Positions 56,893-59,407 of a DNA stretch of 64,000 nt are shown here, one piece after another. The position numbers and the translations under genes are program-made. Below the pieces are notes generated by a model. It did no database searches, was not told the origin of the DNA, and was given only the letters and a program-made list of their open reading frames with translations. This DNA is from Phycisphaerae bacterium RAS2 (lineage in GTDB: Bacteria; Planctomycetota; Phycisphaerae; UBA1845; UTPLA1): positions 4,093,306 through 4,157,305 of the forward strand of contig CP036352.1 in NCBI GenBank assembly GCA_007753915.1. Reading direction: 5' to 3'. Position 1 is the stretch's first letter. The number at the start of each line of letters is the position of its first letter.

Positions 56893-58299
56893 TTATTGGA
56901 ACGTGTCGAAAAGTACGCTCGCCAGGTCGGCGGCCTGGCCGCGTAACTCCGGCACGGCCGTGCTTTCCCAGGTAAGCGGTTTTTGCGGCGGACCGACGGT
57001 GAAGAGAATGGTGGAAGGCGAGCCGTCGCGGTCGATCAGCGCGCCGCGCGAAGTGCAATCCAGACCAATCCGCAGCAAGTCAGGCCGAATCAACCCGTCG
57101 GCGAGCAACTGCTGAATCAGGGGATCGGTCACGCGCGTGAAGTCGGCGTTCGGCCCGGTGCAGTTGATAACACGATGAACATCCAGTGTGATCGCTGACC
57201 GACCATGACCCGCGCGCGGATGGATCTCAACGGCCACGCCATCGGGCTTGAGTCGGTACGCGGCGATCCGCGCAGCGTGAACCTGCACGCGGCCGCTCTG
57301 CACGAGATCGCTGAACACCGCCGCCACGTCCGGCGCGATCCGATGACGATGGATCTCCCAGAAGTGTCGCACGTGCCGAAAGAACTGCCGGCGCTGATCA
57401 AGCGTGAACCGCTGCCAGAGCGGGGCCGTCGCACCGCGCAGGCCGTCGACGATCGCGCGCCAATCGCCGCCCTGCTCCGCCACCTCGCGCACGCGCCGGC
57501 GAATCGCGCGCAGCAGCGGCTGCGGCGCACTGGGCAACTCCTCGACCGATGAGGGCAACGGCGCGACGGGTGATCGAAGGTGCGCCTGCGGCATCAGGCC
57601 GTGGCGGCTCACGGCGTGGATCGTCCCGGTGTGCCCCCCCGCCGCCAGTCGCAGTACGATATCGACCGCTGTCAATCCGGTGCCGATGATCAGCACGGGT
57701 CGGGCCGGGTCGATGCGCTGGTAGCGCGGGTCGTCCCACGGATCGCGCAGATAAAAGTTCGTTTCATAAATCGCGTCGCCGGCGGCGCGCACATCCAGCG
57801 GCGCGTAATTGCCCGGTGCGAGCACGACGCGGTTCGCTTCGATCGGCGGCGACCCCGCAAACTCAACCCGCGCCGAGGACTCGCACCCGTCCGGCCGCAC
57901 GCTGCGCACGTCGTCCTTCAGCAGGGTCACGTCGATCTGCGGGCAGCCGACCTGCGCCTCGGCCAGGAGATGCTTGATGTAGTGTCGATACGTACGCCGT
58001 GGCAGGAAGGAATACCCCTCGACGGACGGTCGTTGCGACCGCGCCCAGTTGAGAAAATCGTCGGGCGCATCGGGGAAGGCGCTCATGCGGGCCGTCGGCA
58101 CATTCAACAAGTGTTCGTAGTGGTTGGTGCCGTACGCGACGCCCGCACCGAATCGCCCGGTCCGCTCGACGAGCACCAGTCGCAGAGGTTGCGGTGAAAG
58201 TGGTTTGCCCTCGGCAATCGACTGGGCCGCGCGGCGCAGGAGATTGACCGCCGTCAGCGTGCCGCTGAATCCCGCCCCGATGATGACAATGGTTCGCAT
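56893..58299 (-). CDS. FAD/NAD(P)-binding protein (NAD_binding_9-like)
   Basis: A 468-residue flavoprotein. The FAD motif is IIGAGFSGTLTAVNLL at the N-terminus, followed by GVAYGTNHYEHLLNVPTARM, typical of a family often annotated as FAD-NAD(P)-binding or hydroxyacylglutathione-like. A second dinucleotide site is VLIIGTGLTAVDIVLRLAAGG. The ending INCTGPNADFTRV fits the same group. Substrate unknown. The gene is 25 bases after the cysteine dioxygenase gene, which suggests a joint oxidative reaction on a sulfur compound; this is inference. The ATG at 58299 is chosen at the Rossmann strand. Confidence 0.85.
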   Translation of the reverse strand: MRTIVIIGAGFSGTLTAVNLLRRAAQSIAEGKPLSPQPLRLVLVERTGRFGAGVAYGTNHYEHLLNVPTARMSAFPDAPDDFLNWARSQRPSVEGYSFLPRRTYRHYIKHLLAEAQVGCPQIDVTLLKDDVRSVRPDGCESSARVEFAGSPPIEANRVVLAPGNYAPLDVRAAGDAIYETNFYLRDPWDDPRYQRIDPARPVLIIGTGLTAVDIVLRLAAGGHTGTIHAVSRHGLMPQAHLRSPVAPLPSSVEELPSAPQPLLRAIRRRVREVAEQGGDWRAIVDGLRGATAPLWQRFTLDQRRQFFRHVRHFWEIHRHRIAPDVAAVFSDLVQSGRVQVHAARIAAYRLKPDGVAVEIHPRAGHGRSAITLDVHRVINCTGPNADFTRVTDPLIQQLLADGLIRPDLLRIGLDCTSRGALIDRDGSPSTILFTVGPPQKPLTWESTAVPELRGQAADLASVLFDTFQ

Positions 58300-58324: not shown

Positions 58325-58954
58325 TCAAGCCCGCCGCGCCCGGGACGGGCGGCCGGCTCCGGCGAGCGGTCGCTTGGTGGTGCGTTCGGCAACCCGCAAC
58401 GTCGCGGCGGGTGCGGTCGCAATCCTGCGACGGCGGCTGGGGGTCACTTTCACGACAAGATCCTCGGAGTAGAACTTCATTCCAGTGAGAGCGGGCGAAT
58501 AGATGTGGAGCGAGATGAGATCGTTCGCCGCATCAGGAAGGCAGCCCATCGCATGAATGTCGGCATCGATTGATGCGATGACGGTACCGGTCGGATGAGT
58601 TTTTGCTCGGCCGCGCACCAACCGCCCGTCGCGCCGCTTGCGATAGGGGGTTTCGGTCGCAACACCCTGAATGACGCGCACGCCGCAGGCCGAACCAGTG
58701 TGATCGTGGATCGGGCTGAACTGCCCTCGCTTCCAGCAAAGCAGCCATGCCTGATAGCCCGGGCCGGTGTGAATGAGATTCCGCCGGTACTTTCCCCGAT
58801 GAAAGGCCTGGTACTTGGAAAGTTCCCCTGCCGCGGGCCGAAATCGTTCCAATGCCGAGAAGAGATCGGCCGGCCGCACCGGGCCGTGACACTCATCAAG
58901 CTTCAATAGGAGTCTTTTAAGAGTGTACTTGTCGCTGGTTCTTGAATTCGCCAC
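58325..58954 (-). CDS. Cysteine dioxygenase type I family protein
   Basis: A 209-residue cupin that would oxidise a thiol such as cysteine to its sulfinate using Fe(II). The metal ligands are His83 and His85 in SPIHDHTGSACG and His134 in DADIHAMG. Cys90, in the position of the crosslinked Cys, and Tyr152 in HIYSP are both present. After residue 170 there is an Arg-rich tail of about 40 residues not usual for the family. The start is GTG (58954-58952) with GGAG 7 bases upstream. That ribosome site is one arm of the palindrome at 58961-58974, so a protein bound there would block translation or transcription. Confidence 0.85.
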   Translation of the reverse strand: MANSRTSDKYTLKRLLLKLDECHGPVRPADLFSALERFRPAAGELSKYQAFHRGKYRRNLIHTGPGYQAWLLCWKRGQFSPIHDHTGSACGVRVIQGVATETPYRKRRDGRLVRGRAKTHPTGTVIASIDADIHAMGCLPDAANDLISLHIYSPALTGMKFYSEDLVVKVTPSRRRRIATAPAATLRVAERTTKRPLAGAGRPSRARRA

Positions 58955-58960
58955 AGTTAT

Positions 58961-58974
58961 ACTCCATTCGGAGT
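58961..58974. promoter_or_regulatory. Palindrome ACTCC-N4-GGAGT before the cysteine dioxygenase gene
   Basis: A perfect 5-base inverted repeat with 4-base spacer, between the RHH gene stop and the dioxygenase GTG, containing the ribosome site. Same half-sites and spacing as the palindrome upstream of the RHH gene. Confidence 0.5.
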
Positions 58975-58975
58975 G

Positions 58976-59221
58976 TTAGTCAATGTAACCAAGTGATCGA
59001 AGCCGCTCACGCACTGCAATAGACGCTTCTATAGGAGTGTTATTTGACTCCTTGTTCAGGGCTCCGTTCGAAGCGACATCCCGAAGGACGTGTATCGCGA
59101 ACTCAGTAACACTCCGAAAGCCTGTCCCCTCGATCAGACGCGCCAAGTTGTTGTACAACTCGTCAGGGATCTTGAGCGTCACGGTCTTAACGGGGTTCCC
59201 TTTTCTCAAAACTGCAGGCAT
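58976..59221 (-). CDS. Ribbon-helix-helix DNA-binding protein
   Basis: An 81-residue likely repressor or antitoxin. The strand NPVKTVTLKIPDELYNNLARL, then helices GFRSVTEFAIHVLRDVAS, give the RHH/CopG layout; the C-terminus contains EASIAVRERLRSLGYID. The ATG at 59221 has AGGAG 7 bases upstream. It is the first gene of a row with the dioxygenase and FAD enzyme. Palindromes sharing ACTCC/GGAGT half-sites lie at its ribosome site, upstream of it and downstream of it, as expected for an autoregulated RHH repressor. No toxin gene is adjacent. Confidence 0.75.
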   Translation of the reverse strand: MPAVLRKGNPVKTVTLKIPDELYNNLARLIEGTGFRSVTEFAIHVLRDVASNGALNKESNNTPIEASIAVRERLRSLGYID

Positions 59222-59226
59222 TTTGC

Positions 59227-59268
59227 ACTCCTGTAAGAGCCTTATGCTAATCTCTTCTCCTATAGGAG
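59227..59268. promoter_or_regulatory. Operator-like palindromes upstream of the RHH gene
   Basis: A perfect 12-base palindrome CTCCTATAGGAG (59257-59268) and a degraded copy ACTCC-TGTA-AGAGC (59227-59240), which overlaps the RHH ribosome site. A further half-match, CTTC-TATA-GGAGT, lies inside the gene at 59026-59038. All keep a 4-base spacer. Confidence 0.5.
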
Positions 59269-59407
59269 TCAACCCCATTATCTACTGCGCCATTGGCCGC
59301 TGAAAACCGCGGAATTGGTAACCGTCGATTGATCGGGGCGGCCAGACAGGCTTTAATCTCCGATCGTAACTCGGGCACAGTCCGTTCGCCAGCCCAAAAG
59401 GACCCGA

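Follow-up and report, generated by a model that had tools for sequence, protein, structure and literature searches.

To our knowledge, most described regulators of sulfur metabolism come from Proteobacteria, Bacillota and Actinobacteria. MetJ, a methionine repressor with the ribbon-helix-helix (RHH) fold, is autoregulatory and acts at tandem operators made of 8-bp met boxes. An excerpt of PMC5343134 describes its control of methionine genes in Gammaproteobacteria. In part of PMC545781, the sulfate-reduction regulon of HcpR, a regulator of the CRP/FNR type, is characterized by a palindrome TTGTGA-N6-TCACAA before sat. In Palaeococcus pacificus, the CopG regulator PAP_09880 and sat (PAP_09885) are both upregulated on elemental sulfur, according to a section of PMC6981617, and from their consecutive locus tags the two genes apparently adjoin each other. 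In the open-licence literature we found no description of an ACTCC-N4-GGAGT operator or its sulfur regulon, and the RHH family, operator and regulon considered here appear to be undescribed in the literature searched.

The window, i.e. the whole 64-kb stretch of DNA that was analysed, carries copies of this palindrome around an RHH gene and a cysteine dioxygenase (CDO) gene. On the basis of sequence comparison we consider it highly probable that these palindromes serve as DNA operators for the neighbouring RHH protein, which would repress its own gene and cotranscribed genes, mostly of sulfur metabolism. The genes, promoter elements and sites of the locus are as follows.

58976..59221, minus strand: RHH regulator gene, 81 aa, ATG at 59221
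58325..58954, minus strand: CDO gene, GTG start (PF05995 CDO_I, 67.9 bits, cut-off 23)
56893..58299, minus strand: FAD/NAD(P)-binding oxidoreductase gene (PF13454, 122.3 bits)
59267..59272, minus strand: -35 hexamer TTGACT of the RHH promoter, from a promoter scan, unchanged in G001
59244..59249, minus strand: -10 hexamer TAGCAT of the RHH promoter, from a promoter scan, 17-bp spacer to TTGACT
58956..58983, minus strand: promoter-like TTGACT-N16-TATAAC around O3, read from the sequence and not reported by the promoter scan
59256-59269, plus strand: O1, putative operator TCTCCTATAGGAGT, 1 mismatch, overlapping the -35 hexamer of the RHH promoter
59227-59240, plus strand: O2, putative operator ACTCCTGTAAGAGC, 2 mismatches, including the RHH ribosome-binding site
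58961-58974, plus strand: O3, putative operator ACTCCATTCGGAGT, exact, between the RHH and CDO genes and including the CDO ribosome-binding site
59025-59038, plus strand: O4, putative weak operator GCTTCTATAGGAGT, 2 mismatches, in the 3' end of the RHH coding sequence
58900-58913, plus strand: O5, possible weak site GCTTCAATAGGAGT, 2 mismatches, in the CDO coding sequence

The RHH protein most likely starts at ATG 59221 rather than at the upstream ATG 59278, because the close relative L003 shows an ATG at this position but lacks any in-frame ATG, GTG or TTG further upstream. CDO also follows the RHH gene in G001 (the sister genome) and G017, and the order RHH-CDO-PF13454 is repeated in both (G017/L106), the PF13454 gene probably being the third gene of the operon. 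The promoter-like sequence around O3 is uncertain, because transcription starting 7 nt downstream of it would begin just within the CDO frame. The CDO protein has a Cys in HDHTGSAC and a Tyr in LHIYSP, which we take to resemble the cross-linked Cys-Tyr pair of mammalian CDO.

At two or fewer mismatches, the motif matches five times in the 411 bp from 58880 to 59290, a stretch picked because of the finding itself, whereas 0.19 matches are expected from the mean of shuffled sequences and none of 5000 shuffles contained five or more. The scan recovered all sites noticed in the sequence-only reading of this DNA (58961-58974, 59227-59240, 59257-59268 and a weaker one at 59026-59038) and added a fifth, O5. 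That reading had also placed two of the sites on ribosome sites, which is borne out by the sequence: on the minus strand, GGAGT (58965-58961) lies 6 nt ahead of the CDO GTG at 58954, and AGGAGT (59232-59227) lies 5 nt ahead of the RHH ATG at 59221. The core of O1 (59257-59268, CTCCTATAGGAG) is a perfect palindrome, and the position of O1 relative to TTGACT is the same in relatives. The genome-wide search that the same reading had proposed returned no exact copy other than 58961-58974 anywhere in the 4.32-Mb genome, and no overall excess of the motif (53 matches at up to one mismatch versus 71 for a reversed control pattern). The whole 64-kb window likewise holds 22 matches at up to two mismatches versus 20.6 expected. 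We rejected a genome-wide regulon in the window's genome (G000), where the palindrome is not in excess and the sat gene has no site at one mismatch or fewer.

By the terms of the sequence-only reading, absence of the palindromes in close relatives with the same gene pair would count against it; they do recur, in part as degenerate copies. G001 has only such copies at matching places, namely ACTCCTAATAGAGC and TCTCTTAAAGGAGT before the RHH gene (2 mismatches each; O2 aligns with a similar site there) and GCTCTTATAGGAGC before the dioxygenase gene (3 mismatches). G017 has the palindrome ACTCCTATAAGAGT (1 mismatch) before its RHH-dioxygenase pair, and no site was seen between those two genes. The four codons within O4 (ACT CCT ATA GAA) are all unchanged in G001, whereas the RHH genes overall share 22 of 63 comparable codons, and ATA accounts for 5 of the 143 Ile codons in eight other genes of the window. 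Because four codons including the rare ATA are kept in the sister genome, these small numbers suggest that O4 may be held at the DNA level too. O5 may be a chance match; at its place, G001 has no site at up to two mismatches.

Across the order, at least one site with no more than one mismatch was found upstream of the RHH gene at 24 of 30 loci (38 sites in all) versus none of 30 control stretches (260 bp each, beginning 300 bp after the match and mostly coding), although these counts and those across phyla given below are not independent, because the loci were chosen by RHH similarity and are mutually related. Elsewhere within the order loci, many of which are metagenome bins labelled mostly as Phycisphaerae, Phycisphaerales or Planctomycetota, 7 such sites occur in 86,082 bp. 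In six loci no site reaches this threshold: the best has two mismatches in L003, L009, L021 and L022 and three in L013, and L004 (also L105; G044, RHH protein 67% identical) has no site at up to two mismatches, a single 3-mismatch match that is likely due to chance, and, of the sulfur genes tested, none following on the same strand.

At 20 of the 30 loci the upstream region holds a pair of sites totalling four or fewer mismatches (three of the 20 score 4); the best score among 600 shuffled upstream stretches, for which fewer spacings were allowed, was 5, reached six times. The two sites are 22 bp apart in 17 of these loci, 23 bp in one, and 29 and 30 bp in the window's genome and its sister. 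In 17 of the 20, TTG immediately precedes the first site (forming TTGACT, or TTGACC in one) and supplies a -35 hexamer. The second site likewise starts with TACACT, TATACT or TAGACT (TANACT) in 17 of 20, matching a -10 hexamer, and in 15 the pair overlaps both hexamers. The RHH family is thus preceded by what an autoregulatory repressor is expected to have, a conserved palindrome over its own promoter. In the window, the first site stays on TTGACT and the second is shifted downstream to the RHH ribosome site, and a further putative operator lies in the short gap before CDO.

Gene context was compared at 76 non-redundant loci, which were left of 102 after removal of repeats by RHH DNA and came from the order, from a phylum sample (44 of 392 genomes matched, 30 of which were given loci) and from a named genome collection (43 loci). 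The upstream stretches (107-320 bp; run of N in L134) contain a site at one mismatch or fewer in 53 of the 76 loci, 24 of them exact, whereas the 76 controls contain no site of either grade; like those of the order, these controls were mostly coding, but in short loci they began 50 bp after the match. Relaxing the threshold to two mismatches gives 65 of 76 versus 3 of 76. In 60 of the 76, a sulfur gene in the same orientation follows inside 3 kb or before the locus ends (phylum loci extend only 1.5 kb downstream, and no more than 276 and 212 bp follow the gene in L119 and L143, respectively). Sulfur neighbours were called from tblastn hits scoring 60 bits or more against a single query for each family, and were counted without a chance expectation; they comprise sat (30), a sulfate-type binding protein (16), TauE (8), the PAPS-reductase/CysD family (4) and CDO (3), with one locus counted twice, and the binding-protein and permease counts could be inflated because generic ABC proteins may match the queries. 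Curated NCBIfam models nevertheless agreed for the example proteins put to them: all four binding proteins exceeded the cut-off of TIGR00971 (sulfate ABC binding protein), all three permeases that of CysT TIGR02139, and one protein each that of sulfate adenylyltransferase NF003166 (L134) and CysD NF003587 (L141). In G017, a single gene run of RHH, dioxygenase, FAD protein and sulfate-binding protein joins the dioxygenase and sulfate-uptake contexts in one locus.

The phylum labels come from the record titles of metagenome bins, some of them on short contigs, and could be wrong. The four archaeal loci L137, L141, L145 and L146 have best sites with 2, 3, 2 and 3 mismatches, respectively, and none at one or fewer; the variant sites are ACTACAATCGTAGT in L145 and ACTACAATCAGAGT in L137 (2 mismatches each). 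In two archaeal loci an EF-Tu-type GTPase gene comes next, as expected of CysN. The archaeal PAPS-reductase/CysD-family proteins beside the RHH gene in all four loci have (K/R)LRALGY-like tails resembling the RHH C-terminus, which may be a coincidence.

Several other features of these loci were seen. A relative of PF01663 (type I phosphodiesterase/nucleotide pyrophosphatase) is encoded downstream of the RHH gene in 8 of the 76 loci (L127, L132, L134, L136, L139, L140, L142 and L144), in six of them after sat. A single reading frame of L146 matches both a PF01663 domain and one of the PAPS-reductase type. After the RHH gene, L118 (3527-4777) and L120 (1871-4374) encode SBP_bac_11 binding-protein-like domains followed by a C-terminal DsrE/DsrF-like domain. 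The Bacillota-labelled L143 has three tandem palindromes 18 bp apart ahead of its RHH gene.

We also searched 114 whole genomes for site pairs at up to two mismatches. Fourteen of the 17 matches lie just upstream of RHH genes, and the other three precede the CDO gene of G010, precede an ABC ATPase gene of G041, or are stray (G085). In a table of 101 genomes, a pair occurs in 15 of the 31 genomes that match RHH strongly versus 1 of 70 others (Fisher p 1.3e-8), 2 of the 15 pairs (G010 and G041) being away from the RHH gene. In G041 (contig C119; L100 4332-4367) the pair is followed by the ABC ATPase gene and then by a class V aminotransferase gene. Pair matches with three mismatches away from the RHH gene (in G011, G012, G021 and others) look stray and were set aside, since the reversed control also gave hits in 7 of the 114 genomes. 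Among these 3-mismatch pairs, L103 and L104 lie within predicted reading frames.

Thirty of 57 CDO match rows were given loci, and 4 of these 30 have a site at one mismatch or fewer in the 400 bp upstream (the window, G008, G010 and G001, the last at -103 within its RHH gene); six more have 2-mismatch matches only, which are likely due to chance. In G008 and G010 an operator pair, ACTCCTATAGGAGT with its partner site spaced at 23 or 22 bp, precedes a CDO gene on a contig other than that of the RHH gene, which in draft genomes does not prove distance; the G010 CDO gene lies at least 70 kb from either contig end. In G010 the gene of a SulP-type sulfate permease ends where the pair begins. These CDO pairs, with the upstream sites of the order, support the suggestion of the sequence-only reading that the RHH protein controls both its own gene and the dioxygenase gene through the sites. 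In 12 genomes of the order, no site at one mismatch or fewer accompanies any of the 12 sat loci or any of the 4 loci, from 3 genomes, of the PAPS-reductase family, and the predicted regulon in those genomes is therefore small. Searches at E of 1e-3 or lower turned up homologs of neither the sulfate-binding protein of L122 nor the TauE protein of L112 in G000, G001, G008 and G010.

The palindromes might instead act in RNA, as hairpins that hide the ribosome site of CDO or RHH. Two of those in the window do include ribosome sites whose GGAGT can pair with the upstream ACTCC, and folding 58925-59000 (minus strand) gives the 5-bp GGAGT/ACTCC hairpin, but the folds of the two leader stretches are not clearly better than those of shuffled sequences (z -0.85 and -0.65). 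At the fifth base pair of 47 distinct upstream sites, T-G, which pairs in RNA, occurs 13 times and C-A, which breaks pairing, 10 times, a near symmetry as in a DNA site; mismatches outnumber wobbles overall (28 versus 18), and the palindromes lie on promoter hexamers in the 15 pair loci noted above. Between DNA-level action and RNA pairing, both of which the sequence-only reading had allowed, the comparison favours DNA, and we rejected RNA hairpin control, which is very unlikely, on the fold scores and the near-symmetric base-pair changes. Chance, or a by-product of purine-rich ribosome sites and promoter hexamers, would fit the lack of a genome-wide excess but is scarcely credible given the clustering, the conservation, the 22-bp spacing and the absence of control matches at one mismatch or fewer.

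It is also unlikely that a different regulator binds the sites and that the RHH gene is merely one of its targets. Such a regulator might explain why pairs precede genes that do not adjoin RHH (CDO in G008 and G010, the ABC ATPase gene in G041), but the concentration of pairs in genomes with a strong RHH match, and just before the RHH gene itself, points to the RHH protein. Some RHH proteins activate, and the coding-sequence site at 59025 and the tandem sites permit other geometries, so that activation of some targets can be imagined; we regard this as improbable, because covering both hexamers, as most pairs do, is the classic position of a repressor.

The reading that we prefer, repression by the RHH protein at DNA operators, rests on a protein that known families place poorly. 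Relatives were found in 36 of 101 genomes at E of 1e-3 or lower, 31 of them at 1.2e-17 or better, while Pfam RHH_1 matches the window protein at only 14 bits (E 0.05; cut-off 20.5). The predicted monomer (mean pLDDT 69.7) has helices at 20-29 and 38-51 and a third at 64-77 but no called strand; this C-terminal helix is conserved and ends in RLRALGY-like residues. All four structural matches with Z of at least 5 are RHH proteins, NikR among them (Z 5.7, rmsd 2.4, 46 aligned), although every match to the model has Z below 6 and Foldseek E values are 0.44 or worse. A profile search against the sequences of solved structures gave four matches (E 0.62-1.2), no RHH protein among them. The model thus resembles RHH chains best, with modest Z scores, and sequence models place it there only weakly. 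By family models the protein is neither NikR, for which the NCBIfam models score 12.8 and 12.5 bits, far under their cut-offs of 83 and 175, nor MetJ, of which family the Pfam and NCBIfam searches gave no match at E up to 1.

We infer from the sequence comparisons that the binder is the RHH protein, acting as a repressor and not as an activator, and that its repression is lifted by a sulfur metabolite. RHH dimers would bind ACTCC-N4-GGAGT. At the usual kind of promoter, the 22-bp spacing amounts to roughly two turns of the helix, so that both palindromes would lie on the same face of the DNA, cover the -35 and -10 hexamers and shut out RNA polymerase. Targets cotranscribed with RHH would be sat, cysD(N), the sulfate ABC transporter or the TauE exporter in different lineages, and CDO and the FAD protein in the window's family. 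The polarity is hard to guess, because sulfate uptake and activation point one way and cysteine breakdown and sulfite export the other; derepression upon sulfur shortage is our best guess, held slightly above even chances. The compact autoregulatory circuit of the sequence-only reading is supported as to autoregulation, but it would not be merely local, since sites and sulfur genes recur across the 76 loci. The window circuit looks like its own lineage's version of a wider RHH-sulfur system, in which the repressor has likely been recruited to CDO. We lean, with only modest conviction, towards one RHH family and operator common to Bacteria and Archaea, a general switch for the genes that take up and activate sulfate, which was reused for CDO in the window's lineage. 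On the same modest footing, taken jointly, RHH would go with sat in Planctomycetota and Armatimonadota, with cysD(N) in archaea, where the operator takes a variant form like ACTAC-N4-GTAGT, and with the sulfate ABC transporter or TauE in Phycisphaerae.

If correct, these results would provide a predicted sulfur regulon, traceable by a single RHH operator, for the largely uncultured Planctomycetota and Armatimonadota and perhaps for archaea, as well as an example of one operator system that served sulfate uptake and activation and was then handed on to the breakdown of cysteine. The prediction can be checked with one purified 81-aa protein and 40-bp pieces of DNA.

Among described systems, HcpR shares with the RHH system a palindrome ahead of sat, but its CRP/FNR-type protein and its TTGTGA-N6-TCACAA motif are both unrelated to the RHH protein and its site. 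PAP_09880 is likened to the window protein by description only, the section of PMC6981617 concerned giving no operator or regulon for it. NikR and the CopG/Arc/ParD proteins are similar in predicted fold, and NikR differs in its family scores from the window protein, which has just 81 aa. MetJ comes closest in logic as an RHH repressor of a sulfur pathway that is autoregulatory and has tandem operators, although its met boxes are unlike ACTCC-N4-GGAGT, and by analogy the protein described here may act in the manner of MetJ and other autoregulatory RHH repressors.
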